Below the pieces are notes generated by a model. That model did not search any database, was not told where the DNA came from, and saw only the letters and a list, made by a program, of their open reading frames with translations. This document shows, piece after piece, positions 13,051 to 31,529 of a DNA stretch of 57,907 nt. The translations under genes and the position numbers were made by a program. Source of the stretch: a virus; IMG/VR virus record IMGVR_UViG_3300046002_003436, positions 1 to 57,907 of that record; one strand, given 5' to 3'. Numbering within the stretch: the first letter of the stretch is position 1; each line of letters begins with the position of its first letter.

Positions 13051-13077
13051 TTTTGCCTTTATTAGAAATATACACAT

Positions 13078-13106: not shown

Positions 13107-13109
13107 TTG

Positions 13110-13119: not shown

Positions 13120-13146
13120 CATATTACACAACCCGGGAGCGAAACA

Positions 13147-13428: not shown

Positions 13429-13622
13429 TGCAATACATTGACTACACGTGGGACTTAGAGCCTAATAGGATTAAGTTTGACCCTGAGTTGAATATAGACA
13501 AACTAGGATGGCGACACGGCGACTGTTTTAAAATAGTCAATGTTGACGGACAAGCTATGTTAGTTAAATTAGATCCAGTAGAACAGTTTGTAAGAGGGTA
13601 TAAGGTGAATAGTGATGAGTAA
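13428..13622 (+). CDS. Small soluble protein of unknown function
   Basis: 64 aa, MQYIDYTWDLEPNRIKFDPELNIDKLGW..., likely a small beta domain. The start overlaps the preceding stop (TAATG) and it ends 8 bp inside the next gene, so translation is coupled. No family recognised. Confidence 0.7.
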   Translation: MQYIDYTWDLEPNRIKFDPELNIDKLGWRHGDCFKIVNVDGQAMLVKLDPVEQFVRGYKVNSDE

Positions 13623-13761
13623 ATTCCAAACATGGTATGACAGTTTACCTGAGCATACTAAAACTTATTTAAAAAGCCAACCAGTATGGCACGATAGGGA
13701 CATGTGGAAAGCAGGACTGCTTGGGCTTAGTATAGGATTAATTTTAGGTTTAGCGTTTTAA
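13615..13761 (+). CDS. Small single-pass membrane protein
   Basis: 48 aa, MSKFQTWYDSLPEHTKTYLK then a C-terminal membrane helix AGLLGLSIGLILGLAF. ATG at 13615 overlaps the end of the previous gene. Probably tail-anchored with the N-terminus in the cytoplasm. Confidence 0.65.
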   Translation: MSKFQTWYDSLPEHTKTYLKSQPVWHDRDMWKAGLLGLSIGLILGLAF

Positions 13762-13788
13762 GTATCAATCAACAAATAGGAGCGAACT

Positions 13789-13923
13789 ATGTTGTTTGAA
13801 GCATTTCTAGTATTTTGGATGCTAGAGGTTTTAGTATTAGTATCTGTAGCAGTTTGGTATTATCATAAACCTAAAGTTCAAGAAAAGAAAATACACGATC
13901 CCTGGGGATTCTGGAAGGAGTAA
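13789..13923 (+). CDS. Small single-pass membrane protein
   Basis: 44 aa. An N-terminal membrane helix (LFEAFLVFWMLEVLVLVSVAVWYY) followed by a basic tail and WGFWKE. TAGGAGCGAACT precedes the ATG. Its stop lies only 3 bp before the 13927 start. Confidence 0.65.
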   Translation: MLFEAFLVFWMLEVLVLVSVAVWYYHKPKVQEKKIHDPWGFWKE

Positions 13924-13926
13924 TAT

Positions 13927-14307
13927 ATGGATGTAGTAGAGTTAGTCAACAAATATGGTTTTCCCATTGTCATGGCAGTTGGCATGGGGTTCATTATCAA
14001 ATATGTTTGGGAATGGGCCACCAAAGAAGTTAAACCTGTTATCTCAGACGCTAATACTGTTCTTATTGCCCTTATTGATCGTATCCGTATGTTGGACAAC
14101 GATTTAATCAGACTCAATCAAAAGGTCAATACAGTTTTACATCTACGTGGCAAGATGATTGAAAGCGATCGCGTTATGGAAACAGCACTGGTAGAAGCAC
14201 AGGCCAACAAGAAGTTTCACGATGCAATGGATGAGGCAGATAAGATCAATGCTAAGCCAAAAATTGATCCATCAGATAAAAAAGAGGCGGCAGGAGGCAG
14301 CTCTTAA
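13927..14307 (+). CDS. Membrane-anchored coiled-coil protein, relative of the 13147 product
   Basis: 126 aa. N-terminal membrane helix (YGFPIVMAVGMGFIIKYVWEW, residues 10-30), then a coiled coil containing LIALIDRIRMLDNDLIRLNQKVNTVLHLRG, closely parallel to LDNRVKTMNHDVVRIDTIVSNALGLRP of the 13147 product, and a charged tail ending AAGGSS. Unknown function; an envelope-associated scaffold or holin accessory is conceivable. Confidence 0.75.
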   Translation: MDVVELVNKYGFPIVMAVGMGFIIKYVWEWATKEVKPVISDANTVLIALIDRIRMLDNDLIRLNQKVNTVLHLRGKMIESDRVMETALVEAQANKKFHDAMDEADKINAKPKIDPSDKKEAAGGSS

Positions 14308-14331
14308 AGTATTTTAGTAGGAGGAGCGATT

Positions 14332-14490
14332 ATGATAAATGCAGTTGCCTCGTTATTACTAGCAGGCATGTTATCAAACGAGCCTCGGTGTGTTAAATGG
14401 ACATGGTCAGGCGATGTTTATAATCGTCGAGTTGTATGCGTAGAATGGTCTAAGCCTCCACCTAAAGATAAGGCGCCTAAGAAAGCATGA
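14332..14490 (+). CDS. Small protein with signal-like N-terminus
   Basis: 52 aa: MINAVASLLLAGMLSNEP, then a two-cysteine segment CVKWTWSG...VVCVEW and a Lys/Pro tail (KPPPKDKAPKK). Could be an exported peptide with one disulfide. Preceded by GGAGGAGCGA. ATGA overlap with the next gene. Confidence 0.6.
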   Translation: MINAVASLLLAGMLSNEPRCVKWTWSGDVYNRRVVCVEWSKPPPKDKAPKKA

Positions 14491-14969
14491 TTGATCCCAT
14501 CACACTTGGTATTGCTTTTACAGCCGCACAGCAGTCAGTGGGCTATATCAAAAAAGCCATTGCTCTAGGCAAAGATGTCAACAGCCTCTACGGACAGTTT
14601 GCCAAGTTCTTTGAAAACAGTGACACAATTCATGGTGCTAATGTGGCAGCACAAAACAGCAAAAGTATTCTCACTGACGGTCAGATTAGATCAATGTCTA
14701 TACAGATTGCCATGCAAAGCAAAGCCCTGCGTGATGCTGAGAAACAACTGAAAGAATTATTGATATACTCTGGGAACAGTGATGTGTGGGATCAGATGAT
14801 GGCCGAACGTGTGCGTATGTATAAAGAACGTGCTAAGTTACAAGCAGACTTGACAAACGCTAGGATAAAAGCCAAAGCAGATTTAATAGATAGGGCCTTA
14901 ATTTTTATAAGTTTTTCAGCACTAGCAATACCAGCATTTGCCTTTAGTTTTGCTATACTTGTTCGTTAA
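14487..14969 (+). CDS. Tail-anchored helical phage protein
   Basis: 160 aa. A long helical, coiled-coil-prone body (residues 20-135) ends in a membrane helix ALIFISFSALAIPAFAFSFAILV. Similar architecture occurs in T4-like phage proteins of unknown role. It ends convergently with the PBP-like gene (4-bp overlap). Confidence 0.7.
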   Translation: MIDPITLGIAFTAAQQSVGYIKKAIALGKDVNSLYGQFAKFFENSDTIHGANVAAQNSKSILTDGQIRSMSIQIAMQSKALRDAEKQLKELLIYSGNSDVWDQMMAERVRMYKERAKLQADLTNARIKAKADLIDRALIFISFSALAIPAFAFSFAILVR

Positions 14970-15700
14970 TTAATTGTAGAAATAAATTCCGCTTCTGGAA
15001 TACGGGTATGCGTGTTTTTACTACCCAAAACTACAACAATCTTTCTTCCAACGTCAGTGTCCATCATCAAAACTATGCAACCGCCCGATGCATTAATAAA
15101 CCCAGTTTTACTGACTACAAAATCGTGACGCTTGCCTATGATAGGATTGGTGTTTCGAAACACCAGCCATTTCTTTTTAATTTTTATTTTAATATTACTA
15201 GTGCGTGAAGCCAGTATTATTTCTGGATATTTTGCAGCTTCGATAACAATCTTAACTAATTCTTCAGCAGTACTAACATTCATTACACTAAGTCCGCTAG
15301 CTTCGACAAATCGTGTTTTTGTCAATCCTAGTGATCTTACTTTTTCGTTCATTGCTCGAACACAAGCAGCTGAGCCTCCCGGGTAATGTTTACATAAATC
15401 TAGACTCGATTTGTTATCGGATTTCACTAATGCCAGTTGAATCATTTCCCCTCTTGTATAAGGTTTAAGATTTTCAGTTAAGTCTTGATTGGTATCTAAT
15501 ACAACCATAACAGTAACCAGTTTAGTTATACTAGCAATACTTTTTAGTTGATCGGTATTTTCACCTTGTATTGTTTTACCAGTTCCGTCTGTTACTAGCC
15601 AGCTAGTTGCGGTAATAGGCACAGGTTTAGTATTGGAGGCGATTGCCGGCCCATAATATGATAAGGTAAGAATTACCCAAAGAGAAAAGACTCTGCGCAT
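14966..15700 (-). CDS. S11-family penicillin-binding-protein-like D,D-peptidase
   Basis: 244 aa with a signal peptide (VFSLWVILTLSYYGPAIAS, cleavage near residue 22). All three serine-acyl motifs are present: S57-I-T-K60, SDN (94-96) and KTG (198-200), typical of D-alanyl-D-alanine carboxypeptidases or endopeptidases of the PBP7/DacA type. It lacks the C-terminal membrane-anchoring domain of DacA, so PBP7-like endopeptidase is more likely. It would act on peptidoglycan crosslinks in the periplasm. A phage could use it to open the wall locally for export through CsgG or to aid lysis (inference). Confidence 0.85.
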   Translation of the reverse strand: MRRVFSLWVILTLSYYGPAIASNTKPVPITATSWLVTDGTGKTIQGENTDQLKSIASITKLVTVMVVLDTNQDLTENLKPYTRGEMIQLALVKSDNKSSLDLCKHYPGGSAACVRAMNEKVRSLGLTKTRFVEASGLSVMNVSTAEELVKIVIEAAKYPEIILASRTSNIKIKIKKKWLVFRNTNPIIGKRHDFVVSKTGFINASGGCIVLMMDTDVGRKIVVVLGSKNTHTRIPEAEFISTIN

Positions 15701-15736
15701 TTGCTTATTATATACTTTACAAATAAAATTGTAAAG

Positions 15737-17791
15737 TTATTTTTCGTGAGCTATAAACTCACCGTTCCAATGGTCGCCTAGATCTTGTTGCTTCATAAAG
15801 TCACAACGTTCGATCCAAATCTTGTAGTATTTGTCCATCTGTCCACCGAAGTTGCCCTTTAGCTTTTTACACATAGCGGCAGCTTCGTCAAACTTCTTAG
15901 ATTTATACAAGGCATGCATTGCTTCATGTTGCTCTTTGTCTTTGCTGTAGTCTGCACCACGTGTGCGTAATACTGTATAGATCAAGTCTGCTACAGTTTT
16001 GCCTTTGGGCTGTAAGTTGTCTAACAGCAGGTAGAAGAAATCGTCTTTGGTGCGGTTATATGTTTCAGCACCAATAATACACAACACACCATAAGCCTTA
16101 CAACGTGCTTCTAAACGTGCGGCTGTTGAAACCATATCACCTAAAATGTCATAGCCGTGTCTCGCAGTCGAACCCATCTCACCAATGTAACCATCTCCAG
16201 TATTACAACCCCAACCCATGGCAGCAGGAGGTAAACCTTTTGCTTCCATGATCTTGGTATACTCGTCTACACGATCTAGCATCTCGAGTCCTACCTTAAC
16301 AATAGTGTGTGCGTGTCGATCATCATCCAACGGAGCACCGTGTATGTGCATGCTAGCATCACCTACATACTTGAGAACCATGCCGTTGGCATCAATGATA
16401 GGAATAGTGATAGCATCCATGTATCCGTTCATATACTTGGCTAGACCTTCAGGACCACCATTGCCTGGTTTGTCAAAATATTCGCCGATAGGTGTAAAAC
16501 CACGTAGGTCGCTAAACATAACACTTACGTCTTTCTTAATGCCCTTCTTGATTAGATCCGGATTCTCTTGTAACAGTCTAACTACTTCAGGCGAGCAGTA
16601 ACCAGCAAATTGTTTCTTTATGGCCTGCTTTTGTAAGAACTCGCTTACAAACTTAACGCCGTAAGTATGAAGAGCAACGATAACAAGCCCAGCCGCGAGC
16701 GCAGTCGCGTCTGATAGGATGAGCCAATTATTGAAAGCGTAGATAGTACCAGGAACGACGGCACCAACAATAACCACAGTAGCACCAATGCCAACATAAG
16801 TCCACCTCGACAAGAAAATTAATAATATGCCGAATGCTAGTAATGCTAGTATTTCAACTCCGTCGGCATAGTCAGGACGTTGAATCACTACTCCGTTGAT
16901 CATAGTTGCCATTACTGCCGCTTGCACATCTTGTGGCCACACTGCACCTTTGGCTGTAGGCAAAGGATTGGCAATGCCAGCTGCGGTTGGACCCACAATC
17001 ACGATAGCACCATTAAAGTTTTTGGGCAAGTCTAATAGACTCGCCTGCTGGTTTTCTTGACTCCAATCGATCCACACACGACCTAATGCATCTGTTGTAA
17101 TAGGACCAAACTTGGGTATACGCATTTTCTCAACACCAAGCTCGTTGAGCTTGACTTGAAATGTTGAGTCGCCAGCGGCCACACGAAGTGCTTCCATAGA
17201 CATACTGGGATACAGTTTGCCATCAACAGATACAACTAGGGGAAGTCTACGATTAACACCATCTACTTCTGGTAGTGTGCTAACAATACCAATACCTGCT
17301 GCTGCGTTTTCTAGCTGCGGTACATTAGCAATTAATCCAGGATACTGTATAATTTGACCTAAGTGCTCTGGACCTAACACTGCTGAGCCAGGATTGCGAG
17401 GAGAGTTCTTGGTTTTTTGCGATGGCACGCTGCCCATTACAACTGGATATTGTTTTAGGGCATTTGCGAGAACAGCATCGCCACCAGTGCGATCAGGCTC
17501 AGCCATGATAACATTGAGCACAACAAGGCCAGCACCACGATCATACAAATCTTTAATAATTTTTGCATACTCTGCCCTGGGTAGTGGCCATTGGCCATAT
17601 TTGTCTAAGGCTGCTTCATCTATGTTTACTGTATAGATGTTGTTGGCAGTTGGAGCTTTTTGTGTAATTAGTGTGTCAAAGTAGCGTAGTCTTACACTTT
17701 CTACAAAGACAGGATCGGCGATTCTTATACTTACAATAAGTGCCAATGTTAATAGGGCAGTCCAAGGACTTAGGAGGATTTTTTTCAGCAT
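15737..17791 (-). CDS. CHASE2-domain class III adenylate/guanylate cyclase
   Basis: 684 aa: an N-terminal membrane helix (9-25), an extracytoplasmic CHASE2 sensor domain (about 30-300), three membrane helices (about 310-380) and a cytoplasmic class III cyclase domain (about 420-600). Metal ligands are visible in MFSDLRGFT and KYVGDASMHIHG, and the transition-state Arg in STAARLEA. The Asn usual in GD-x-VN-x-A-x-RLE is Ser here (GDMVSTAARLE). The family makes cAMP (rarely cGMP) in response to an external cue. It lies directly downstream of the curli-like genes. TAAATA ends 5 nt before the ATG and no Shine-Dalgarno is present, so a leaderless late mRNA is possible. Confidence 0.9.
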   Translation of the reverse strand: MLKKILLSPWTALLTLALIVSIRIADPVFVESVRLRYFDTLITQKAPTANNIYTVNIDEAALDKYGQWPLPRAEYAKIIKDLYDRGAGLVVLNVIMAEPDRTGGDAVLANALKQYPVVMGSVPSQKTKNSPRNPGSAVLGPEHLGQIIQYPGLIANVPQLENAAAGIGIVSTLPEVDGVNRRLPLVVSVDGKLYPSMSMEALRVAAGDSTFQVKLNELGVEKMRIPKFGPITTDALGRVWIDWSQENQQASLLDLPKNFNGAIVIVGPTAAGIANPLPTAKGAVWPQDVQAAVMATMINGVVIQRPDYADGVEILALLAFGILLIFLSRWTYVGIGATVVIVGAVVPGTIYAFNNWLILSDATALAAGLVIVALHTYGVKFVSEFLQKQAIKKQFAGYCSPEVVRLLQENPDLIKKGIKKDVSVMFSDLRGFTPIGEYFDKPGNGGPEGLAKYMNGYMDAITIPIIDANGMVLKYVGDASMHIHGAPLDDDRHAHTIVKVGLEMLDRVDEYTKIMEAKGLPPAAMGWGCNTGDGYIGEMGSTARHGYDILGDMVSTAARLEARCKAYGVLCIIGAETYNRTKDDFFYLLLDNLQPKGKTVADLIYTVLRTRGADYSKDKEQHEAMHALYKSKKFDEAAAMCKKLKGNFGGQMDKYYKIWIERCDFMKQQDLGDHWNGEFIAHEK

Positions 17792-17807
17792 GAAATATTT
17801 ATGCTGT

Positions 17808-19481
17808 TTATTGTCCCTGTGTCACAGTAATTTTAGCACATCCGCCGGCAGTGGTACAGTTATGCGTGATTGAATAGTAGTTTTGAGTACTGCCACTTTG
17901 TGTTAAGCTCAGATCAGTAGGCGTGCCGCTTAGATTAACTTTGGCCATATGGCCTGCACTACCTTGTTGTAGTATATCTACATTTTTATTACCGCCGCTC
18001 AGTGTGACTTCAGCATAGTGACTACCACTGTCTTTTTGTTGCACTAGTAAACTGTTGTTATTGCTACCGACATCGGCAAATATTCCTTTGCTGCCACCAG
18101 TACTGGTCTGTTGTAGATCTACTGAGTTAAAATTGCCCACAACTCTCAAGTCAACATAGTTTACCTGTGTCGTGGCATTACCAGTTTGTGTGATGTTAAC
18201 ATCGTTGCTTAGGCCGTTGCCATAGTAATTAACATAATTATTTCGTGTACCAGATTGATTGACGATAACTTCATTCTGTGTTCCAAGTTGTTCAATATTA
18301 ACTTTACTATCGGCAGTTGTTCTGTTAGTAAATGTTAAAACTTTGGCTGTATTTGTTGTATTTGCATTGAAAGATGCTGCTGATCCTCCACAGCATAATG
18401 TGTTGTTAGCTGCGGTCACTGGATCAACAATTGTATTACTAGATGCTGTTGATGTTGTTGTGCTGTTGGCATCATAGTAATAGGTAATCTCCGCAATCTG
18501 CATACTGTCGCAATTCAGCCCGCACCCATCACCTGCTTTGGTAGTTGGAAACAGCATAAAGTAATATGTGTAAGCAGTGGTATTACCTGTGCTAATCACT
18601 GAGCTAGTAGTAAAACGATTTTCACTTAATGTGATAGAATCTTGCTTAATCAATGTCCAAGTCGAACCATCATTACTGCCGTATAGTTTATAACTTGTAG
18701 GATCACGTCCACTAAAATCGTTGGCTGTGGTAACTGTAAATCCTGTCACTATTCTACCGGAATTTAACTGAACAGTAACACCTGCATTCTTCTTATCAAA
18801 GTTTAGATATTTTGTATTTGGATTATTATCAAATGCATTATTAGGACCTTCACCGCCGGGACTATTATTACTAGTTGGTATTGCTCTAGTAATATTAACT
18901 GTGGCACTGTTCATGTAGATTGCTGTAGGCGCAGGTGGAGGAGGACCTGCCGGTGCGGCAGTTTGCCCAGCAGCCAATGGAGTTGTTGATCCGTTAGCAG
19001 CGTATGAGTTAACCTGCGCCACTGTGGGATTCACTGTGCCAGTCCATGACAATCCGCTAGTATTGGCAAATCCTTGTGTCATACTAAACAACTGGCCAGT
19101 ATTGTTATCGTTACCTACAAAGAAGAAATAGTCTGTGCCCATATTAATAATACGTCCAGTTCCCATCACTGCTTTCTGTGTGCCTCCTGAACTAAATTGC
19201 ACAGCGTTCCAGGGGTTAGTTGAATTACCAGTAGCAGCAAATGCCACATAATCACCAGTCGCCCATGCTAATTGTCCACTAGTCCAAGGGATCTTGTATG
19301 CTGTTCCTGGTTGCTTACTATAAATTTGACAAGTTGCTGTATACATACAGGCGCTGACGTTCCATTGACTGTCAGCAATTTGAAAGCGGCCAAATTTTAA
19401 ATCAACAAGACCTGTTGCTTGACTATGTGCGCTCAGACAAAATGCCGTTAGAAAAGAAAATATTAATAAGAAACGCTTCAT
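17808..19481 (-). CDS. Secreted discoidin-like protein with curlin-type repeats
   Basis: 557 aa with a signal peptide (FLLIFSFLTAFCLSAHSQA). The middle (about 200-330) resembles an F5/8-type C (discoidin) domain: GPNNAFDNNPNTKYLNF, SYKLYGSNDGSTWTLI. The C-terminal 170 residues carry curlin-like repeats with the N/Q and G spacing of amyloid curli, for example VNIEQLGTQNEVIVNQSGTRN and VNITQTGNATTQV. It could be a minor fibre subunit or tip adhesin that joins a carbohydrate-binding head to the curli fibre. Its start overlaps the FecR gene stop by 4 bp, and 16 bp separate it from the cyclase. Confidence 0.8.
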   Translation of the reverse strand: MKRFLLIFSFLTAFCLSAHSQATGLVDLKFGRFQIADSQWNVSACMYTATCQIYSKQPGTAYKIPWTSGQLAWATGDYVAFAATGNSTNPWNAVQFSSGGTQKAVMGTGRIINMGTDYFFFVGNDNNTGQLFSMTQGFANTSGLSWTGTVNPTVAQVNSYAANGSTTPLAAGQTAAPAGPPPPAPTAIYMNSATVNITRAIPTSNNSPGGEGPNNAFDNNPNTKYLNFDKKNAGVTVQLNSGRIVTGFTVTTANDFSGRDPTSYKLYGSNDGSTWTLIKQDSITLSENRFTTSSVISTGNTTAYTYYFMLFPTTKAGDGCGLNCDSMQIAEITYYYDANSTTTSTASSNTIVDPVTAANNTLCCGGSAASFNANTTNTAKVLTFTNRTTADSKVNIEQLGTQNEVIVNQSGTRNNYVNYYGNGLSNDVNITQTGNATTQVNYVDLRVVGNFNSVDLQQTSTGGSKGIFADVGSNNNSLLVQQKDSGSHYAEVTLSGGNKNVDILQQGSAGHMAKVNLSGTPTDLSLTQSGSTQNYYSITHNCTTAGGCAKITVTQGQ

Positions 19482-20575
19482 GGTCTTCTCAATACTCCGG
19501 TCTTCTGAATAATGTTTACAACATTGCCGCCTGGATCTCCGCTACCGATTATATTAAACGCATATTGATCGTTGTGACTGATTGATACAAAAGTATTCGA
19601 ATCGTATCCGGATGTTTTTACTTCAGCGTAGTGATCTACATTACTTCTGTAGGCTGTGCCTTTACCTTTACTTTGTATATCAGATGAATCATTCTTTTCC
19701 CACGCCACACATACTGATGTGCTAGCATTACAACCAATCTTTCCAGCTGCTTCCATCATGGCAAGTATCCGAGCACTTTCAATAGCTTCGTTTGTTTCTC
19801 TAACTCTCATGGCAATTCGACGTTGTGCTTCTACTTCAATATCTTCAAATTCTCGATCTTGTTTTGATCTTGCTTGTTGTTTTATTGCGAGCATAACTTC
19901 TTGAGGCTTAACAAGAATTAAATTGTTACCTATATTGCCTTCGATAGTATTAACAACAACCGGGGCAGTTGGCATCATTGAAGCACTAGTGACATAGGTA
20001 GCTTCAAACGCTTTGTCTAGAGTCACTGATCCGATGCCTGTACTTACTGTGATACTGCCTACTTTACAACGTTGTTCGTCTAATTCAAATTGTTTAACAT
20101 CTTTTTCGTCTTTACAACTAGGAACCAGCATGACAAGACTTTGCCCAGTTTCGTCCACAGTCATAGTGAAGTCAGTGCCACGCACTGCCACCGTGGCTGT
20201 TGGGGTTTTAATGTTTACCTGTTGCGGATTATTTTTAGCAATTTGTCCACTAGCGTATCGGACAGTGCCCATACCAACCTTGAGCGCGAGCTTGCCTGCA
20301 TCTGATTTCTTAGGATCGAAAACAAAATCGTCGATAAGCAATCTGCTGTTTTCTGTAACCTTGACTTTGGTATCATCTTTGAATGTTATATTACTTACAC
20401 AGGCACCGGTTGTGTAGGTGTCCATGCTTTCAATGTCAGCCCCCTTGACTCCTGAAAGTTTTTTCTTGTTGCGTTCAACTTCACAGGCTGTGCCTTTGTT
20501 TTCTGAAACCGTGCCAATGCCAGCCCAGGAAGGGCTGGCCACTGTTAGCAATAGGGCTAACAATATGACACGCAT
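19478..20575 (-). CDS. FecR-domain exported protein with a curlin-like tail
   Basis: 365 aa, signal peptide MRVILLALLLTVASPSWA. Residues 18-160 match the FecR fold: GTVSENKGTACEVER, DTYTTGACVSNITFKDDTKVKV, KTPTATVAVRGTDFTM. FecR domains sense or scaffold at the periplasmic side. The last 60 residues (DHYAEVKTSGYDSNTFVSISHNDQYAFNI) resemble the curlin-type repeats of the neighbours. It lies between the curlin-like and the discoidin-like genes and is likely a periplasmic partner of the fibre, or a nucleator. Confidence 0.8.
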   Translation of the reverse strand: MRVILLALLLTVASPSWAGIGTVSENKGTACEVERNKKKLSGVKGADIESMDTYTTGACVSNITFKDDTKVKVTENSRLLIDDFVFDPKKSDAGKLALKVGMGTVRYASGQIAKNNPQQVNIKTPTATVAVRGTDFTMTVDETGQSLVMLVPSCKDEKDVKQFELDEQRCKVGSITVSTGIGSVTLDKAFEATYVTSASMMPTAPVVVNTIEGNIGNNLILVKPQEVMLAIKQQARSKQDREFEDIEVEAQRRIAMRVRETNEAIESARILAMMEAAGKIGCNASTSVCVAWEKNDSSDIQSKGKGTAYRSNVDHYAEVKTSGYDSNTFVSISHNDQYAFNIIGSGDPGGNVVNIIQKTGVLRRP

Positions 20576-20577
20576 AA

Positions 20578-21393
20578 TTACCTCGCAATCGCTGTGGCTG
20601 GTGATACAATGTTCGAACTACTTGTACGAACTGTGATAGTGTTGTTGCTACCCTGTGTTTGTATATTAACTGTGGTATCGTTGGTACCTTGTTGCTGAGT
20701 GGTAATACTGTTATAGTCACCAACGGTATTCATGGCAAGAATATGTCCGTTAGCACCGGCTGCATCCATTTGCTGAATGTTGAATACGTTGGCATTACCG
20801 TTAACAATATTAGATACTTGACCTCTGCTACTTAACAAACTGCTAGTAACTTGGTTGTTGTCACCATCTAACACTGTGTTAGTTGTGATATTGCTACCGA
20901 CTAGCTCTTGTAGAATCATGTTGTTATTACCGATAATTTGTTCTGTAATAACGTTTTGACTGTTAGTAGCATTATTGGGATTGCCAACAGTCAGTCTAGT
21001 TTGATTACCATTACCTAACATGTTGGTAGTATAACTATTATTGCTACCGCGAATGTTATACTGGCTGCTATTAGCATTGCCGGTTTGTGTGATGTTAACC
21101 GTATTTGTGCTGCCTGTAATAGTTCCGTAGTTTGTTGCGCTAGGAGCATCTGGTGTCAGTGTGGTAATACCTGTTCCAGATACTGCGGTTGCTACTGTTG
21201 TAGTAACACCGCCAACATTGTTTGTCCCGCCAACCTGTTCGATAGTGATAGTATTGCTACTACCAACTTGTTCGATATAGACTTTGTTAGGGCCTGTTGC
21301 TGTCTGAGCACCACTTATGGTGGCAAAGCTCAAAAGCATCACTGTGAGTAATTTTCTCGACAACTCACTACCGCCTGTCATTGTTTGTTTCAT
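20578..21393 (-). CDS. Curlin-like fibre subunit (CsgA/CsgB type)
   Basis: 271 aa with a signal peptide (LLTVMLLSFATISGAQ). The mature protein is almost free of charge and full of Asn, Gln, Thr, Gly and Ser. Curlin-type units recur: VYIEQVGSSNTITIEQVGGTN, VNITQTGNANSSQYN, VFNIQQMDAAG, YNSITTQQQGTNDTTVNIQTQGSNN. This is the hallmark of functional amyloid subunits secreted by CsgG. It is longer than CsgA (about 150 aa). It follows its own promoter with three 16-bp repeats, downstream of csgG. Confidence 0.85.
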   Translation of the reverse strand: MKQTMTGGSELSRKLLTVMLLSFATISGAQTATGPNKVYIEQVGSSNTITIEQVGGTNNVGGVTTTVATAVSGTGITTLTPDAPSATNYGTITGSTNTVNITQTGNANSSQYNIRGSNNSYTTNMLGNGNQTRLTVGNPNNATNSQNVITEQIIGNNNMILQELVGSNITTNTVLDGDNNQVTSSLLSSRGQVSNIVNGNANVFNIQQMDAAGANGHILAMNTVGDYNSITTQQQGTNDTTVNIQTQGSNNTITVRTSSSNIVSPATAIAR

Positions 21394-21478
21394 TTTTTTT
21401 CTAATGTCAGTTTATTTTTTGCTGACAAGTTCCTTGGACCTGTGTCCGTTGATAATATTTACTTGCTCCTATTACAAT

Positions 21479-21484
21479 ATTATA
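21479..21484 (-). promoter_or_regulatory. Putative regulated promoter of the curlin-like operon
   Basis: TATAAT at 21484-21479 with no good -35: the position 17 nt upstream reads ATGTTG and lies inside the 16-bp repeat array (21491-21538). A promoter whose -35 is replaced by regulator sites usually depends on an activator. TSS about 21472, leader about 80 nt to the ATG at 21393. Confidence 0.5.
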
Positions 21485-21490
21485 CTCCGC

Positions 21491-21538
21491 TGTTAAAATT
21501 TCAACATGTTAAAATTCCAACATGTTAAAATTCCAACA
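21491..21538. repeat. Three tandem 16-bp repeats at the curlin promoter
   Basis: Direct head-to-tail copies at 21491-21506, 21507-21522 and 21523-21538. The last two are identical (TGTTAAAATTCCAACA); the first differs by one base (TTTC for TTCC). Each unit is a partial dyad TGTT-N8-AACA, as expected for a dimeric DNA-binding protein. They fill the gap between the csgG stop and the -10 element. Confidence 0.85.
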
Positions 21539-21541
21539 CCA

Positions 21542-22786
21542 TTAAGGTTTGTCAACCAGTACATCCTGCTTAACAAATCCTGATCTCTTTTCTGAATCGC
21601 TTACTTTGTGCCAGCCTTCTGGTCCCGGAGCAATAATGGTTAATTCAGTGCCTTTCTTTAACAGCCAGGTGCGCTGACTTTTTTCATTTGCTTCTTTATA
21701 AACATATGAATCTTCTTTTAAATATCTAGCACCAAATAAATCTACTGTGGGCTTTATGCCAGTTTGCATCGCTGTTACTTTTAAATCAGCTGTAGGTTCT
21801 TCTTTCTTTACTTCTTGGGAGGTACTGGATACGGTTTCGGTTTTGGTTTCGGATTTGGTCTGTGGTTGAACCAACTCATCTTTCTTCTCCTCTACTGCTG
21901 GTGCAGGTGCAACTATTGGTGCGGGTATCGTTGGAATAACAGCAACCGGAGCACTTACTTTATTGCTTTTAAATGCCCAGTGACCTTTGCGGGCACCTTC
22001 GTTGATAGTTTGAATTACTGCTGCCTGTACAGCTACGTCGATTGCCTTGTTGATGCTTTCATTTATACTGCCGCCGACTTCACCCTCTAACGCATTTGCG
22101 TTAGCACCTAAAGTTGTGCCGTCTCCAACAAATCGCAATAATGTTACTTTGTCCATATAACTCAAGACTGTTTTGGTCACAGTCACTGTTGTTAAAATTT
22201 CGCCTGTAGACACGCTCACGGTTCTTAATGTCACTGTCACAGTGTCTGATTGATATTGTGTGCTTGCACCAATACCAAACAGTCTCACTCCACTGCCGCC
22301 TGTTAGGGTATTTGAATCATAGCCAACAATACCACCTTCCATGATAATTCCAGCAAACATCATTGGAGGCAACAGCTTGGCATCACGTCCTTGATATTGT
22401 TCACGCATTTGACGAATCATTTGACGTTCTTTAATCAAGTTCTCTAGACCGACACGTTCTAACACTGTGAACCAGCGTTGATCACCTACATCCTGCAGGG
22501 CCTTGATTAGATAGTTTTCAGCACCTTGCGTAACTGCTGAACTTAATGACGCAATCAGTGGCTGGCTTTTACGCTGCCCTGTTAGATCTCTAAATCCATA
22601 CACTGCCACTGTTAACGGACCGCCTTCTGGTGGTTGTAATTTATTAGCGTCTTTCTTTAGAAATTTACTAGACTCGACTTTTGGTTCGTCAAACTGATTT
22701 CCAGTTATTTTTTCTCTGATAGCTGAACTCGATGCGCAGCCAGTTAATACTGCAACAACTGCCAAGGATAATAATGTCTTTTTCAT
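21542..22786 (-). CDS. csgG: CsgG-family outer-membrane curli secretion channel
   Basis: 414 aa, a lipoprotein: signal peptide with lipobox LTGCASS (Cys17). Residues 55-275 match CsgG: VAVYGFRDLTGQRK, AVTQGAENYLIKAL, WFTVLERVGLENLIKERQMIRQ, GGIVGYDSNTLTGGSGVRLFGIGASTQYQSDTVTVTLR. This is the nonameric pore that exports curli subunits. A Pro/Glu-rich linker (280-345) and a C-terminal SH3-like domain (about 350-414, ending GFVKQDVLVDKP) are additions not found in E. coli CsgG and may bind peptidoglycan. Next to CsgF, as in bacterial curli operons. Confidence 0.92.
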   Translation of the reverse strand: MKKTLLSLAVVAVLTGCASSSAIREKITGNQFDEPKVESSKFLKKDANKLQPPEGGPLTVAVYGFRDLTGQRKSQPLIASLSSAVTQGAENYLIKALQDVGDQRWFTVLERVGLENLIKERQMIRQMREQYQGRDAKLLPPMMFAGIIMEGGIVGYDSNTLTGGSGVRLFGIGASTQYQSDTVTVTLRTVSVSTGEILTTVTVTKTVLSYMDKVTLLRFVGDGTTLGANANALEGEVGGSINESINKAIDVAVQAAVIQTINEGARKGHWAFKSNKVSAPVAVIPTIPAPIVAPAPAVEEKKDELVQPQTKSETKTETVSSTSQEVKKEEPTADLKVTAMQTGIKPTVDLFGARYLKEDSYVYKEANEKSQRTWLLKKGTELTIIAPGPEGWHKVSDSEKRSGFVKQDVLVDKP

Positions 22787-22789
22787 CGA

Positions 22790-23275
22790 TTATCCCCCAA
22801 ATCCAAATGTGCCGCTAGGCACGATCATTTCTGTAAATTGTCTTGGATCTAGTACATTTTCAATTCTAACAACAATATTAGTGCCTACTACTTTCCAAGT
22901 AATGAAATTACCTGCCACTTCCATCTCGCCACAGTTACCTGAATTGTTAGCAGTGCAAACTGGAACACCATTAACACCAAACAAACTGTCTGTAATTTGT
23001 TTGGCTAGTTGTGAATAGATACGACTTTCTAAATTTGCTTTAAATTTAGCCTGCGGAGTGTTTAGTGCATCAGATTCTGCTTTTGCTTTTAGAGCATCGG
23101 CAGCAGCCTTATTTTTATCCCTAGCTTGTGTTTCTAATTGGTGTATAGTTAAGACGTGAGAACTAAAACCAATACCACTAAAGGATGGGCTGTTAAAATT
23201 ATGTTGTAATTCTGCACTGTTAGCTGCTGTTGCAATTGTAGCCATCAATGCGGTGGCTATTATAAACTTAACCAT
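22790..23275 (-). CDS. csgF: CsgF-like curli accessory protein
   Basis: 161 aa with signal peptide (FIIATALMATIATAANSA). The start of the mature protein, LQHNFNSPSFSGIGFSSH, corresponds to the CsgF peptide that inserts into and narrows the CsgG pore, and the rest has CsgF-like length and a C-terminal beta part (ITWKVVGTNIVVRIENVLD). In bacteria CsgF couples secretion to nucleation at the cell surface. Start at 23275 after GGGAGCGA. It ends 3 bp before csgG, so the two are co-translated. Confidence 0.85.
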   Translation of the reverse strand: MVKFIIATALMATIATAANSAELQHNFNSPSFSGIGFSSHVLTIHQLETQARDKNKAAADALKAKAESDALNTPQAKFKANLESRIYSQLAKQITDSLFGVNGVPVCTANNSGNCGEMEVAGNFITWKVVGTNIVVRIENVLDPRQFTEMIVPSGTFGFGG

Positions 23276-23302
23276 CGATTCGCTCCCGGTAGTTACTGTT
23301 AG

Positions 23303-23308
23303 TATTTA
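23303..23308 (-). promoter_or_regulatory. Late-type promoter of csgF-csgG
   Basis: CGTAAATACT, core TAAATA at 23308-23303, about 28 nt before the csgF start. It resembles the T4 late promoter and the plus-strand copy at 13110, and both are followed by a GGGAGCGA ribosome-binding site. Confidence 0.5.
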
Positions 23309-23365
23309 CGTAGGGACGATCTAAAGTTAACTGATTAGTTTAATCTAGATTAAAAGGATAGTTTA

Positions 23366-24463
23366 TTACGGTACCTTGACCTGCATACCATTCTGAGCAC
23401 CGCCATCGATCCCTAATTTTTGTATGATCATAGTTTGTGCAAATTGGTCGGCAGTTTCAATGTATATGATATTTCCGGAACCGGTGTTGATGAATAATAT
23501 TCCTTTAAATTCATCATGTGTTTTATAATAATCAAATGCGTATTTTTTTAATGCTGTGTAAAAAGAATCAAATATAACCGATCCTTGATTGTTCACTGCC
23601 GGGGCAGTTAATTGATTAAGTTCTGCAGGAGTTGCATCAAGATAGATAGAATTTATAACACCGCTAAGAGATGTTCTAATAAATTTTACCACACTGGCTG
23701 GCTTGGCACCTGCATTAATCAATGTTGGCCCGAAGTTATTCCAGAAATCTGATGTTTTTCCCACATTAACAGTAGCAGGCGCAGTAATTGGGGCTTTTAA
23801 TCCCAACTTACTAGGAAGGCTTGCGGCTGCTGTTTTTAGTGCCGACAGAGTTGAAGTGCTGTTACCGTAGCCTCGAACACCTTTAATTCTTCCGCCGTTG
23901 CCTTTTACTTCAATTAATTTACCAGCAATTACTAAATCGCCAGCGTCTTTGCTTAACATGATTTTTGGGCTACAGATAGCCAAAAACATTTCTCCTGGGC
24001 CTTTTTGTGTTTTTGTCTTACCTGTTTTAAACAGTCCTTGAATAGCTATTAACTCGGGAGCGACTTGTTTATAAACATTGGGATAGTTAGTAACAACCAA
24101 TGATTCAAGATTTTGCCATACTCCGGGTGATAGTAGTTTTTTAAGATTAATAATGCCTTTTGTTGCTAATTCTACAGCGAAGCCTTCTTTTTCTTCATAT
24201 GGTGCCTTGGCATCAATAATAGCTCTAGAAATAACAGTATGCACTTGACGAAGATCTTCGTCTTTCTGTAGAATCGAATCTACGCCACCGCCGATATCAA
24301 TCTTTCTTACATAAGAATAAATTTGATGCAATTCATCGATATCTGTGACCTGATCAATTTTACTAACAATTGCCTGCTTTACATTAGTCAATTGGCTAGA
24401 ATTTGCAGGAGTTTCTCCTGGGGTTTGCGATATTTTTTCTGATAAAAATTCAAAGGATCTCAT
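23366..24463 (-). CDS. Putative virion protein with capsid-targeting-like N-terminus
   Basis: 365 aa. Opens MRSFEFLSEKISQ, matching the M-R/K-x-aromatic-E-hydrophobic pattern also seen at 52369 and 57347, with LSE as a possible T4-type prohead protease site. The body contains GPGEMFLAICSPKIMLSKDAGDLVIAGKLIEVKGNGGRIKG, an (E/D)VKGxGGR element suggesting a nuclease-like or nucleotidyl-transferase-like core, as in phage proteins of unknown function. TAAATA ends 5 nt before the ATG and there is no Shine-Dalgarno sequence. Confidence 0.7.
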   Translation of the reverse strand: MRSFEFLSEKISQTPGETPANSSQLTNVKQAIVSKIDQVTDIDELHQIYSYVRKIDIGGGVDSILQKDEDLRQVHTVISRAIIDAKAPYEEKEGFAVELATKGIINLKKLLSPGVWQNLESLVVTNYPNVYKQVAPELIAIQGLFKTGKTKTQKGPGEMFLAICSPKIMLSKDAGDLVIAGKLIEVKGNGGRIKGVRGYGNSTSTLSALKTAAASLPSKLGLKAPITAPATVNVGKTSDFWNNFGPTLINAGAKPASVVKFIRTSLSGVINSIYLDATPAELNQLTAPAVNNQGSVIFDSFYTALKKYAFDYYKTHDEFKGILFINTGSGNIIYIETADQFAQTMIIQKLGIDGGAQNGMQVKVP

Positions 24464-24471
24464 ACAGTTAT

Positions 24472-25155
24472 TTATCGGATTTCAGGGAACAGGCATTCTT
24501 GGATAAAATGCTGAACATCGTCCTCTGATAGTCCTAAACTAACCATTACACGCGGTGTATGCGGGTTACACTTCTGATTTTGTGCATAGTAGTTCTGTGC
24601 TTCTGTAGTATCTGCCGCTGTATTGTTTGTTTCAGCAACTGTGCTTAGATAGTGTTCTATTGTAGTTTTTGCTAGATCTGTGATCTGTTGTAATTCTTCT
24701 TCATCGCTGACATTACCAGCAGCAACCATGCTACCACTGAATATGTTTGTAGCCCACTCGGGCAGGGCACGTTGTTTACGCCATTCTAATTTGGCCACTT
24801 CATCATGAAACCATTGCATCATAGGATGGTCAGCATCACCCGCTTTGGAGTAATCATGGAAACAACCTGTGATTTTGTTTTTGCCAGCAATTACATCGAA
24901 GCCGTAGATCGGTGCTGGATTATGCGTATGCGGGAAGATGCAACAATGCATCATCCAAAGTCCCTTGCTTTCTCTAGCGTCTACTACATCAACGTGAGCA
25001 CGACGATACCGATCACTAGTCCACACACGATTAACCCAGCCAGGTTGATTAAATCTTTCCATCCCAGGCTCATTAACCTCTTGACCCGTGCGGCTGAAGT
25101 TATCTTCCAATAGATGTTGGATCTCAATTAGTGTATCCCATACCTTACTCTCCAC
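24472..25155 (-). CDS. Ferredoxin-dependent bilin reductase (PcyA/PebS/PcyX family)
   Basis: 227 aa. The family core is clear: RRAHVDVVDARESKGLWMMHCCIFPH, then PAPIYGFDVIAGKNKITGCFHDYS, the P-x-x-G-x-D block with the Asp that protonates biliverdin, and a helical C-terminal half. These enzymes reduce biliverdin to a phycobilin using ferredoxin. It overlaps the heme oxygenase gene by 11 bp, which supplies the substrate. Phage members (PebS in cyanophages, PcyX in oceanic phages) make phycoerythrobilin. Which bilin this one makes cannot be read from the sequence. No ferredoxin is in the window. Confidence 0.85.
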   Translation of the reverse strand: MESKVWDTLIEIQHLLEDNFSRTGQEVNEPGMERFNQPGWVNRVWTSDRYRRAHVDVVDARESKGLWMMHCCIFPHTHNPAPIYGFDVIAGKNKITGCFHDYSKAGDADHPMMQWFHDEVAKLEWRKQRALPEWATNIFSGSMVAAGNVSDEEELQQITDLAKTTIEHYLSTVAETNNTAADTTEAQNYYAQNQKCNPHTPRVMVSLGLSEDDVQHFIQECLFPEIR

Positions 25156-25690
25156 GATACAAATCTCGCATCATTTTAATAGCATATTCAAATGCTACAC
25201 GAGCTTCGTCTCCAAGGTCGTCTGTTAGTGTTTGACGGATGGCCATTTTCATCGCATCGCCATTATCAAAGTCGTAGAACTTGCCACTGCTAATATGTGC
25301 TACTTGTTTCTTAATGATTTGACCACCGAATAGGTCACCCATATGACGGCAGTATAAATGCGCCTTAACCAAATGTTTACGTTCCGGATCATTGCCTAGT
25401 TTGTGTAAGTATGTCTGATACTCAAGTGTAGCAGGAGTTAGATAACAGTAACTACCGTCGTCTAATTCTAGAAAGTCTGCAAGAATACCCTTGAGACGAG
25501 GAAGGTCTGGCATTGTGACCAGGAACCCCTGACGCTGACAATACCATTCAATAGGATCGTATATGGCCAAAAGATTATAGAGATAATTTCTGTAGTCTTG
25601 TTTTTCAATCTTGCCACTCAGCAACATCTTGGCAAACACAGTGGTTTCTGCTTCGTGATGCAGATCTTTGGTAATCTCTCTTAGACTCAT
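25145..25690 (-). CDS. ho1: Heme oxygenase
   Basis: 181 aa, shorter than cyanobacterial HO1 (about 240 aa). Proximal heme ligand His11 in KDLHHEAE, distal helix HMGDLFGGQIIKK with the glycines over heme, and YDPIEWYC / YLTPATLEYQTYL as in the family. It opens heme to biliverdin IX-alpha, iron and CO, consuming ferredoxin electrons. It overlaps the bilin reductase downstream and ClpS upstream (4 bp), so all are co-expressed. Truncation affects the C-terminal tail only. Confidence 0.9.
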   Translation of the reverse strand: MSLREITKDLHHEAETTVFAKMLLSGKIEKQDYRNYLYNLLAIYDPIEWYCQRQGFLVTMPDLPRLKGILADFLELDDGSYCYLTPATLEYQTYLHKLGNDPERKHLVKAHLYCRHMGDLFGGQIIKKQVAHISSGKFYDFDNGDAMKMAIRQTLTDDLGDEARVAFEYAIKMMRDLYRGE

Positions 25691-25986
25691 TCTGGATCCA
25701 CTAACACACGCAAAGGTGATCCATTCTGACGGGCCACTGCTGTGGCTTCCATGCCTTTTTGTTCGGCGATTTCAAAACTGTAGACACCTGCAACTCCGCT
25801 ACCTGTTTCATGTATTTCTAATGTAACTTCTTTGGCAGAAGATTCGGTGTGCTTAAATATTCCTGTAAGCAGTTCTATAACCAATTCCATTGGGGTGGAA
25901 TCGTCATTAAGCAGCACCACTTTCCACAAGCTGGGTGGCTGAAGTGCTACAACTACTGATTCTTCTACTGCGGTATCTGTTGACAT
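25687..25986 (-). CDS. clpS: ClpS-family protease adaptor
   Basis: 99 aa. The ClpS core is plain: LWKVVLLNDDSTPMELVIELLTGIF (21-45), SAKEVTLEIHETGSGVAGVYSFEIAEQK and a PLRVLVDPE end. In ClpS the NDD/TPME region binds N-degron residues and the protein docks on the ClpA N-domain. A phage copy may steer host ClpAP or work with the phage ClpP at 6961. It heads the bilin cluster. A TTAAATAC late-type element lies about 20 nt upstream. Confidence 0.9.
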   Translation of the reverse strand: MSTDTAVEESVVVALQPPSLWKVVLLNDDSTPMELVIELLTGIFKHTESSAKEVTLEIHETGSGVAGVYSFEIAEQKGMEATAVARQNGSPLRVLVDPE

Positions 25987-26003
25987 ATCGTTCCTGTGTT
26001 CTG

Positions 26004-26009
26004 TATTTA
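26004..26009 (-). promoter_or_regulatory. Late-type promoter of clpS-ho1
   Basis: TTAAATAC, core TAAATA at 26009-26004, 18 nt before the clpS ATG and just behind the hsp20 terminator hairpin. Confidence 0.45.
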
Positions 26010-26011
26010 AT

Positions 26012-26031
26012 AAGGGAGGGTGGCCTCCCTT
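26012..26031 (-). terminator. Hairpin terminating the hsp20 transcript
   Basis: AAGGGAGG-CCAC-CCTCCCTT, an 8-bp stem located 9 bp after the hsp20 stop. The tail is AT-rich but has no long T-run, so termination may be partial. Confidence 0.6.
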
Positions 26032-26039
26032 ATAGTATA

Positions 26040-26483
26040 CTATTTAATATCGACAATGTCAATAACTTTTGGCTTTGCAGACTCGGGAACGTTTCTCACT
26101 AATTTAATAGTAAGCATGCCATTCTTTGTTTCTGCACCAACTACTTCAATGTGTTCTGCCAATGGAAATTCTTTGGCAAAATCACGAGTAGCAAGACCTC
26201 TGTGTAGATATACAATTTCCGGATTCTCATGGCGAATAGATTCTGTTCCTTCGCCCGCAACTGTAAGAACATTAGATTCCACAGTAACAGAAATTTCCGA
26301 TTTCTCAAATCCTGTCACAGCAATTTGAATCTCATACTGATTCTCACCAGTCTTGAGAATATTGTGTGGCGGATAGTTGTTGGTTACACTATTAGCGTAA
26401 CGACGTTCCATTTGGTCAAACATGGTGTCGAACCCGACCAGTGCTCTGCTTAGAGCATCTAATTTTGTTAATTGATTGTTCAT
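26040..26483 (-). CDS. hsp20: Small heat-shock protein (Hsp20/IbpA type)
   Basis: 147 aa. Alpha-crystallin domain with NYPPHNILKTGENQYEIQIAVTGFEKSEISVTVESNVLTVAGE (41-83), LHRGLATRDFAKEFPLAEHIEV and MLTIKLVRNVPES, as in IbpA. The N-terminal arm holds FDQMERR. It would hold unfolding proteins as oligomers for refolding by DnaK, which is encoded 56 bp upstream. Both genes share an almost identical leader (TCTTACTTTAAA(A)GGAGA). Confidence 0.93.
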   Translation of the reverse strand: MNNQLTKLDALSRALVGFDTMFDQMERRYANSVTNNYPPHNILKTGENQYEIQIAVTGFEKSEISVTVESNVLTVAGEGTESIRHENPEIVYLHRGLATRDFAKEFPLAEHIEVVGAETKNGMLTIKLVRNVPESAKPKVIDIVDIK

Positions 26484-26539
26484 AATAGTCTCCTTTTAAA
26501 GTAAGAACAATTGAGGCCTCGAAAGTACCTCGTTTATGA

Positions 26540-28438
26540 TTAGTCTGCCTTCTTCTCTGTGAAGCTGGCGTCGACTACATCATCTGGGCTAGGCTGGGTA
26601 GGCTGTGCTTGTGCCGCCTGTTCCTTGGCCTGCTTTTTCTCTAACAATGTTTTCATTGCCGGGAAAACCTTGTTAAGCTCTTCGGTGATCTTTTCAGCAT
26701 CGTCACCTTTAGCTGCTGTTTCAACTGCGGTAATCACTGTTTCAATTTCTGTGACTTCTGCTTCTGTAAGCTCTGCACGGAATTCCTCAAGATCTTTTTT
26801 GACTTCGTGCACCTGTGCTTCTGCTGAATTTCTTGTATCGATCAGCGTACGAGCTTTCTTGTCTGCTTCTGCATTCAACTCTGCGTCTTTGATCATGGCT
26901 TGAATTTCAGCTTCTGATAGTCCACTGTTAGATTTAATAGTGATCTTGTTTTCTTTGCCTGTGGCCTTGTCTTTGGCTGAGATATGCATGATACCGTTGG
27001 CGTCAATGTCAAAGGTAACTTCAACTTGTGGCTGTCCTCTACGTGCAGGAGCAATACCGTCTAGTTTAAATTCACCTAACAACTTGTTATATTGTACAAG
27101 CTCACGTTCGCCTTGGAACACCTTGATATCCACTGCTGGTTGATTATCTTCTGCTGTTGAGAATGTCTGCTGTCCTTTAGTCGGAATAGTAGTATTCTTT
27201 TGGATGATCTTGGTCATTACACCGCCCATGGTCTCAATGCCCAGGCTCAATGGTGTGACATCTAACAACAGCACGTCATTGCGATCGCCACCTAGCACAG
27301 CACCCTGGATAGCAGCACCAACGGCAACTGCTTCATCTGGATTAACGTCTTTGCGTGGTGCTTTGCCAAACAGTTTCTCAACTTCTTCTTGTACCTTAGG
27401 CATGCGTGTCTGGCCACCTACTAAGATGACTTCGTCGATGTCTGAGGCACTCACGCCTGCATCCTTGAGAGCAATACGGCATGGCTCTAATGAACGTGTG
27501 ATTAGTTCGTCAACCAGTTGTTCTAGTTTACTACGTGTGATCTTAACATTCATGTGTTTAGGACCGGTAGCATCTGCTGTGATGTAAGGAAGGTTGACAT
27601 CTGTCTGAGCCGAACTTGACAATTCAATCTTGGCTTTTTCAGCAGCGTCTTTCAAACGTTGTAGGGCCAACATGTCTTTGCTTAGATCCACACCTGCTTC
27701 TTTCTTGAACTCATCCACCAGATAGTCCATGATGCGTTGGTCAAAGTCTTCACCACCTAAGAATGTATCTCCGTTGGTGCTTAATACTTCAATCTGCTTG
27801 TCCCCGTCTACATTCGCGATTTCGATGATCGACACATCGAAAGTACCGCCACCAAGGTCGTAAACAGCAATTTTCCTATCAGCTTTGTCATCTTTATCAA
27901 CACCATAAGCAAGAGCTGCCGCAGTAGGCTCATTGATAATACGAAGTACCTCCAAGCCTGCGATCTTTCCAGCATCTTTAGTGGCCTGTCTTTGGCTGTC
28001 GTTAAAATACGCTGGAACTGTGATAACTGCTTGAGTAACTGTTGTACCAAGATAATCCTCCGCTGTCTGTTTCATTTTACGCAGAACTTCTGCTGAAATC
28101 TGTGGAGGTGCTAGTTCTTTGTCTTGTGCCCTAACCCATGCATCGCCATTACTATTTTCATAGATTTCGTAGGGCATGAGGTCGAGGTCTTTTTGCACAG
28201 CCTGTTCTTTGAACTTGCGACCGATCAGTCGTTTGCTGGCATAAATTGTGTTCTTGGGATTTGTTACTGCCTGACGCTTGGCTGAAGCGCCAACAATGAT
28301 TTCGTCTTGTGTATAGGCTACGATTGAGGGCGTAGTTCTAGCACCTTCTGAATTTTCAATAACTTTGGATTTTCCATTCTCGATAACAGCCACGCATGAG
28401 TTGGTGGTGCCGAGGTCAATACCGATGATCTTAGACAT
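26540..28438 (-). CDS. dnaK: DnaK (Hsp70) chaperone
   Basis: 632 aa, full length. N-terminal ATPase: [78 protein letters not shown]. Substrate domain: [20 protein letters not shown], helical lid and a C-terminal [12 protein letters not shown] as in bacterial DnaK. It is bacterial in type, so acquisition from a host is likely, but it has phage-like neighbours and a T4-like late promoter. No DnaJ or GrpE gene lies in the window, so host co-chaperones would be needed. Confidence 0.97.
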
Positions 28439-28515
28439 GTTCTATCTCCTTTAAAGTAAGATCTATTTGAGCACTATGCTCTATGAACTGCCCTTGACGG
28501 TGCAATTCACAATTT

Positions 28516-28523
28516 TATTTATA
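28516..28523 (-). promoter_or_regulatory. T4-type late promoter of dnaK
   Basis: TATAAATA at 28523-28516, a perfect match to the T4 late promoter, about 77 nt before the dnaK ATG. The leader ends TCTTACTTTAAAGGAGA, nearly the same as the hsp20 leader. Confidence 0.6.
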
Positions 28524-28808
28524 TCAGATATTCTCTAGATTCTGAATATTTGACCACTTTTTTAATTTTTCACGTTTAGCTTCAGCTGCACGATCAATAT
28601 TTGTCCAGCTCACAATATCCATGCTGTGCAAGATATCGATCATGGTTATCATGTCGCCCAGCTCTTCTTCTAGGTGTGCCCTATTGGTTTTAGGTTTGCC
28701 CGGCTTGTAATTATCAAGCCCGAAGCGGCTGATTTTACTTACCGCTTGTATAACTTCAGCACATTCTTCTTGGAGAATGTCCATTACTTCTTTGGTTTGA
28801 CTGTCCAT
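28524..28808 (-). CDS. MazG-like nucleotide pyrophosphohydrolase
   Basis: 94 aa. Helical with the all-alpha NTP-PPase pattern: ILQEECAEVIQAVSKISRFG (E-E-x2-E) and LEEELGDMITMIDIL (E-E-x2-D), the metal-binding acidic set. Phage MazG-like enzymes hydrolyse dNTPs or alarmones. It begins 3 bp after the exonuclease gene. Confidence 0.85.
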   Translation of the reverse strand: MDSQTKEVMDILQEECAEVIQAVSKISRFGLDNYKPGKPKTNRAHLEEELGDMITMIDILHSMDIVSWTNIDRAAEAKREKLKKWSNIQNLENI

Positions 28809-28811
28809 ATA

Positions 28812-29393
28812 TTACCTTTGATTTGCAAATGGTGCGATATAGTTACCGTCGCTCATTGTGCTGGTCCGCAGAGCTTTGTAGACATTTTGCACACCCACTG
28901 CTTGATTCCACGCATCTTCGAGAGCATGATGTTTTAGCACTGGAGGACGGTTGGGATTAATGCCTACATCAAAAATTGTACGGGTGTCACGAACTTCCCA
29001 GAAGCTCCACGGAATAGCTTTGCCGATTTTACGGAAATACCATTCTAGGATCGTAACGTCAAATCCTGCACCGTGACTCCATACTCGTTTTCCGCCCCAA
29101 CAAAACTTATACAGTTGTGTCATTGCTTCTTCAATAGATACTCTGTTTGCAGGATCAAATGCTTCGTTCTGAGCTTCCTGGCTTTGGTTGGCCCACCAAT
29201 CTAAGGTAGCCTGTGATACCGTAGCACCAATCCGATCACAGCTATCAACATCAACACGGACATAAAATTTCTCACATTTCTTTTCGTTTACATCGTCACC
29301 AAATGGATCAAATTTAACTGCTCCAATGGTAAGGATTGTGGCGGAGGGAAGGACGTCAAGCGTCTCCAAGTCTATCATAATATCTGTGTTCAT
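28812..29393 (-). CDS. DEDDh-type 3'-5' exonuclease
   Basis: 193 aa. MIDLETLDV gives the first D-x-E of exonuclease motif I, VWSHGAGFDVTILEWYF motif II and LKHHALEDAWNQA motif III with H-x4-D. It resembles the Rv2179c/exodeoxyribonuclease VIII-like group in phages. The start ATG at 29393 has no Shine-Dalgarno sequence and lies at the predicted TSS of the promoter just upstream, so the mRNA may be leaderless. Confidence 0.85.
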   Translation of the reverse strand: MNTDIMIDLETLDVLPSATILTIGAVKFDPFGDDVNEKKCEKFYVRVDVDSCDRIGATVSQATLDWWANQSQEAQNEAFDPANRVSIEEAMTQLYKFCWGGKRVWSHGAGFDVTILEWYFRKIGKAIPWSFWEVRDTRTIFDVGINPNRPPVLKHHALEDAWNQAVGVQNVYKALRTSTMSDGNYIAPFANQR

Positions 29394-29399
29394 ACAGTT

Positions 29400-29428
29400 A
29401 TTATACTACCTTTCTGACCAATGGTCAA
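29400..29428 (-). promoter_or_regulatory. Sigma70 promoter giving a leaderless mRNA
   Basis: TTGACC (29428-29423), 17-nt spacer, TATAAT (29405-29400). Seven nucleotides downstream of the -10 is the A of the exonuclease ATG. Confidence 0.75.
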
Positions 29429-29431
29429 TGA

Positions 29432-31519: not shown

Positions 31520-31529
31520 GAACTAATAT

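Follow-up and report, generated by a model that had tools for sequence, protein, structure and literature searches.

The curlin locus and its repeat array

The window, that is, the whole stretch of DNA analysed here, is a 57.9-kb virus record (IMGVR_UViG_3300046002_003436) of a giant T4-like phage and encodes 26 tRNAs and a tmRNA. The tmRNA call at 42529-42965 comes with an unusually long predicted tag; as the tmRNA of phage Melnitz is a two-piece molecule with a glutamine riboswitch (PMC9004378), the tmRNA of the window may be permuted too. All named genes near the repeat array are located on the minus strand. They comprise csgF (22790-23275), which has its own late box, the adjacent csgG (21542-22786) upstream of the array, a gene for a curlin-repeat protein as the first gene of the transcript (20578-21393, scoring just below the cut-off of Pfam Curlin_rpt), a gene for a discoidin-domain protein, and the downstream cargo genes for a FecR-domain protein (19478-20575) and a CHASE2 class III cyclase (15737-17791), the presence of which does not track the array. 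The gene order csgF-csgG-curlin is shared with the marine myophages HTVC008M and Melnitz, the latter encoding csgF, csgG, curlin, FecR, a further curlin, and a cyclase. Unlike the window, neither phage has an array at this site; the distance from csgG to the start of curlin is 20 bp in Melnitz, and the two genes overlap in HTVC008M.

In the window, the array consists of three abutting 16-bp units at 21491-21538 (minus strand), and the csgG stop codon (21542-21544) almost adjoins its 5' boundary. Two units are identical (TGTTAAAATTCCAACA) and the third differs by one base (TGTTAAAATTTCAACA); on the transcribed strand, the distal (21523-21538) and middle (21507-21522) dyads read TGTTGGAATTTTAACA and the proximal dyad (21491-21506) reads TGTTGAAATTTTAACA. 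An earlier note on this DNA had reported three such units, each with a TGTT-N8-AACA dyad, and we confirmed both the units at these positions and the dyad in all three. This is the top-scoring tandem array of the window, and 200 copies of the window generated by a second-order Markov model yielded no double and no triple array, compared with the one triple array observed. Together with the conservation in relatives described below, these copies rule out a chance repeat.

The feature extends beyond the repeats recognised in the earlier note, which are real but incomplete, since the conserved part runs on to a TAAATA box at 21461-21456. The TATAAT described as the accompanying promoter element is indeed present (21479-21484, minus strand) but is not a conserved sigma-70 -10 element, the corresponding hexamer in relatives being TWTAAT. 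It occupies the -35 position, with a distance of exactly 17 bp to the putative T4-type late promoter box GTAAATA downstream (21456-21462, minus strand; TATAAATA class; TAAATA core at 21456-21461). This box itself follows the proximal dyad at 29 bp. Taking the position of the T4 box (-13 to -6; PMC2988020 and general knowledge), transcription is predicted to start at 21450 (minus strand), placing the dyad centres near -48.5, -64.5, and -80.5. The claim that most other promoters of the window are near-perfect TTGACA/TATAAT pairs was overstated: 61 sigma-70-like pairs were found in the 19 kb scanned (13000-32000) versus 45 ± 6 in shuffles, and only four of them had at least 11 of 12 matches.

Conservation and distribution of the module

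Relatives of CsgG and curlin were taken from viral contigs, yielding 52 and 73 loci, respectively, and about a dozen diverged csgG-curlin gaps keep the three dyads, the hexamer, and TAAATA at constant distance. A catalogue of 31 distinct modules or phage variants, each with three units, shows the same order of elements throughout, with three dyads followed by TWTAAT and then by TAAATA exactly 29 bp past the last dyad. As the 29-bp spacing was itself the criterion for entry into this catalogue, independent support for the spacing comes from a scan of all viral contigs for the triple dyad only, in which 42 of the 48 stretches retrieved have TAAATA at exactly 29 bp.

Within the 93 units of the catalogue, TGT and ACA are invariant except for one base, A or T almost always occupies positions 4 and 13, position 5 is A or G, and the centre contains A/T only, resulting in the consensus TGTW-N8-WACA (TGT-N10-ACA throughout the 31 modules). 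The pitch is 16/16 in 23 modules, and the remaining eight have one gap of 17 bp. GC[GA] directly follows the proximal dyad and precedes TWTAAT in most relatives, the box is mostly (T/G)TAAATA and fixed in position, and the interval between hexamer and box has near-random bases carrying little information, yet its length is constant. T3 and A5 of the hexamer are invariant, and its position 2 is A in 38% and T in 61% of the modules. This last feature, and the fact that the invariant element is the TAAATA located 17 bp downstream, led us to reject a sigma-70 promoter with a weak -35 region. The unit also has a direction, as G occupies position 5 in about half of the left halves and is rare in the right halves.

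Free variation of the repeat number in relatives, which the earlier note had named as evidence against its reading, was not observed when tested with the 31 modules and with a scan for two dyads plus the box. The latter found 32 stretches, of which 28 were already known and four were new; in these four, the third unit is intact, shifted, or decayed. At two further loci (L059 and L063), the left half of the proximal unit is decayed. Copy number, half-sites, and spacing are thus strictly conserved across the 31 variants, which supports the operator-like, regulatory nature originally proposed for the repeats.

Each of the seven array-bearing records (1.59 Mb in total), including records of 280-356 kb, contains a single array. 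It was found neither in the nine array-less curli phages scanned nor among the five cultured relatives checked. The triple-dyad pattern occurs in 21 stretches of 85,000 bacterial and archaeal genomes (257 Gb), none of them with TAAATA at 29 bp, and these stretches look like simple tandem repeats. No CsgG relatives were confirmed in bacterial genomes with two strict back-translated patterns. Scanning four array-bearing genomes with a position weight matrix of the unit gave almost no other strong intergenic sites, suggesting that the regulator, if phage-encoded, appears dedicated to a single locus. Two stray sites were considered as a clue to autoregulation and dismissed, as the genes beside them resemble a prohead core gene and a tRNA. 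On the CsgG tree, the array label requires five changes, which is an overcount because the array was scored as absent from two rows in which its proximal unit is decayed.

A swappable cargo locus

In many array-bearing loci, the gene following the box encodes a curlin-type protein (24-100% identical to the curlin of the window), and the stop codon of the upstream gene is often close to the array start. At other loci, the box precedes genes for products that were described from their sequences only: a coiled-coil-like protein of 143 residues, exported proteins (one rich in Thr/Asn, another with 179 residues), or a membrane protein of 63 residues. Because the array also precedes these non-curli genes, the module is, judged by gene content, a property of the locus and not of curlin.

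The region at 15737-25690 of the window and the loci L191-L232 have the appearance of a swappable cargo locus, in which the module is followed either by curli genes or by genes for unrelated exported or small proteins. A bilin reductase and a heme oxygenase are encoded a few kb upstream in several of these loci, curli and non-curli alike. Another type of array, with four copies of TGTTTAACTTAAAACA at a 17-bp pitch and TAAATA 13 bp after the last unit, was observed at locus L202 (from position 1813 onward) and also at L219 and L230.

A probable late promoter with additional elements

In the 353-kb relative G001, no words are more enriched upstream of genes than those of the TAAATA type, and 16 TAAATA late boxes are located upstream of ORFs in the window. 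Homologues of the late sigma factor gp55 are encoded in the array-bearing G001, G002, G003, and G013 (34-38% identity), with gp23 and terminase homologues beside them. These gp55 homologues were retrieved by tblastn with the Melnitz protein, an earlier hand-made motif search having found none; the window has no gp55 match, as this fragment does not cover the gene. The enrichment of the box before genes and the presence of a gp55 homologue indicate that it is most likely the T4-type late promoter of this phage family.

T4 late promoters are described as consisting of an 8-bp box without any upstream or -35 element, with a sliding-clamp activator that is not site-specific (PMC2988020). The promoter studied here resembles them in its TAAATA box, the gp55 homologue, and the enrichment of the box upstream of genes. 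It differs by the three dyads, which are putative operators, and by the conserved hexamer at the -35 position, and is thus, by its sequence elements, a probable late promoter with extra elements. These additions are restricted to one site per genome: among 75 TAAATA contexts in G001, only the one at curlin has the array, and no common -35 element is seen in the remainder.

The late promoters of phage P2 offer the closest working analogy. They contain TGT-N12-ACA, and the zinc-finger activator Ogr serves four of them (PMC3931495). Similar to the P2/186 systems (Ogr/B and P4 Delta), a TGT...ACA dyad upstream of a phage late promoter replaces the ordinary -35 element. In contrast to P2, the dyad is TGT-N10-ACA, it is present in three copies at one promoter per genome, and a search of 16 records for Ogr_Delta (PF04606) gave no match over the cut-off. 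As spacing, copy number, and protein differ, the array promoter and the P2 late promoters do not belong to the same family.

DNA site or RNA element

As the array often starts near the stop codon of the upstream gene, its dyads could also form hairpins at the 3' end of the preceding transcript and act as a terminator or stability element. The folding data are in part consistent with this explanation: the array of the window folds far better as RNA than its shuffles (z -8.4), and in 26 of the 31 arrays, the sense strand forms a more stable fold than the antisense strand. However, five of the 31 arrays fold only weakly (z +0.1 to -1.2). Positions 4 and 13, next to the TGT/ACA stem, show no covariation, being paired in 33 of 56 distinct units compared with 33.9 expected by chance, and TGT/ACA almost never changes. 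Watson-Crick pairs are slightly above chance at positions 5/12 and 6/11 and below chance at 7/10 and 8/9 of these units, and pairing in the long hairpin reaches 560 of 660 cells versus 540 expected. Furthermore, no U-tract follows the array, and an RNA element would leave the fixed distance to the promoter unexplained. Given the chance-level pairing at 4/13 and the five weakly folding arrays, the array was read as DNA and not as RNA, and a role as an RNA element is very improbable. The better folding of the sense strand in these 26 arrays follows from G being far commoner at position 5 of the left half than of the right; this bias, which is not accounted for by a DNA site that is purely symmetric, is a loose end.

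A selected RNA structure is found nearby in the curlin leader (21393-21450, minus strand), where a hairpin with a stem of 21427-21422 and 21410-21405 lies between the AAGGA ribosome-binding site (21435-21431) and the ATG. All six of its pairs show two-sided compensatory changes across 14 relatives, some carrying the array and some lacking it, and 92% are paired. This hairpin would shorten the 37-nt spacing between the ribosome-binding site and the ATG to about 14 nt. It illustrates what a selected RNA looks like, and the contrast with the array supports the reading of the latter as a DNA site. A second short hairpin precedes AAGGA in the curlin leader.

Candidate regulators

The earlier note had linked the array to a cyclic-nucleotide-dependent regulator because of the nearby cyclase, and a host CRP-type protein fed by the phage cyclase would be such a candidate. 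CRP-superfamily sites are 16-bp dyads of the form TGTNA-N6-TNACA. The array unit, which can be written as TGTWR-N6-YWACA, shares this geometry with TGT and ACA at its ends, and a class III cyclase is often part of the phage cassette. Unlike in CRP/FNR sites, position 4 of the unit is T or A instead of G, and the units abut at a 16-bp pitch, which is tight for CRP-sized dimers. Array and cyclase also dissociate in both directions: G013 (356 kb) and G014 (117 kb) have the array without a class III cyclase, whereas G016 (372 kb), others, and the cultured phage Melnitz have the cyclase without the array. Phage records may be incomplete, so the absence of a cyclase from a record is not proof. A CRP-type protein was not found either, the cNMP-binding domain PF00027 being present in 0 of 10 phage records. 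With the cyclase not obligatory in phage records, the proposed link to cyclic AMP is broken, and a CRP-type regulator fed by the phage cyclase is very improbable. Control of the CsgD/LuxR kind finds no counterpart in these 10 records, as the LuxR-type HTH domain PF00196 is absent from all of them.

Phylogenetic profiling of the G001 proteins, based on four array-bearing (G001 and three others) and five array-less genomes, retained among the annotated proteins a single clear DNA-binding candidate, an HTH_39 protein. This winged-helix protein (L168:3344-3673 in G001) is conserved among phages with the array and is also widespread elsewhere among large phages. It was rejected as the binder, as it is also encoded in eight phages without the array. 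Equally possible is that the binder is a host protein.

Proposed function of the array

We propose, with a probability of about 0.6, that the array is an operator through which a dedicated site-specific regulator, most likely an activator, controls one late promoter. A dimer would bind each TGTW-N8-WACA dyad, so that three dimers would sit at about -48, -64, and -80 from the start set by TAAATA, with TWTAAT at the -35 position. Activation is favoured because the dyads stop immediately before the core promoter and lie at a constant distance from the box; from this position, the regulator may touch the polymerase or the sigma factor at a fixed distance. The promoter would drive whichever gene occupies the swappable cargo locus, in the window curlin and its partners. 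With a dedicated operator on its promoter, the cargo would be subject to a second condition besides ordinary late timing.

The same sites could instead serve a repressor that would assemble on the three dyads as a tetramer or filament and silence the cargo promoter until its removal. Such abutting tandem dyads are characteristic of cooperative repressors, such as those binding the lambda-type tandem operators, and a single target per genome would also fit. Yet some 30 bp separate the sites from the late box, which they leave uncovered, and repression would not need the invariant 29-bp spacing, making a repressor operator rather unlikely. The least probable explanation considered is that a protein bound to the array stops or docks the sliding clamp beside the promoter. 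Its argument is purely geometric, the array being located directly upstream of the position of gp45 in the T4 late complex (PMC2988020), and no other late promoter of the genome carries an array that could serve as such a parking site.

Returning to the activator, a more specific and tentative version is that a protein of an unrecognised family acts together with the T4-type late sigma factor via TWTAAT and the three-dimer operator. Such a system would be reserved for one cargo locus and may allow the phage to decide late in infection on fibres versus other surface cargo.

A description of such an element was not found in the open literature searched, within the limits of that literature. Strictly conserved upstream sites are unusual in this setting, as T4-type late promoters are described as being without upstream control sites, and their activation is the textbook example of a mechanism that does without upstream operators. 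If the proposed function holds true, large T4-like phages can place selected cargo under separate control. The identity of the binder would name the signal and provide a handle on the role of phage-encoded curli and other surface cargo.
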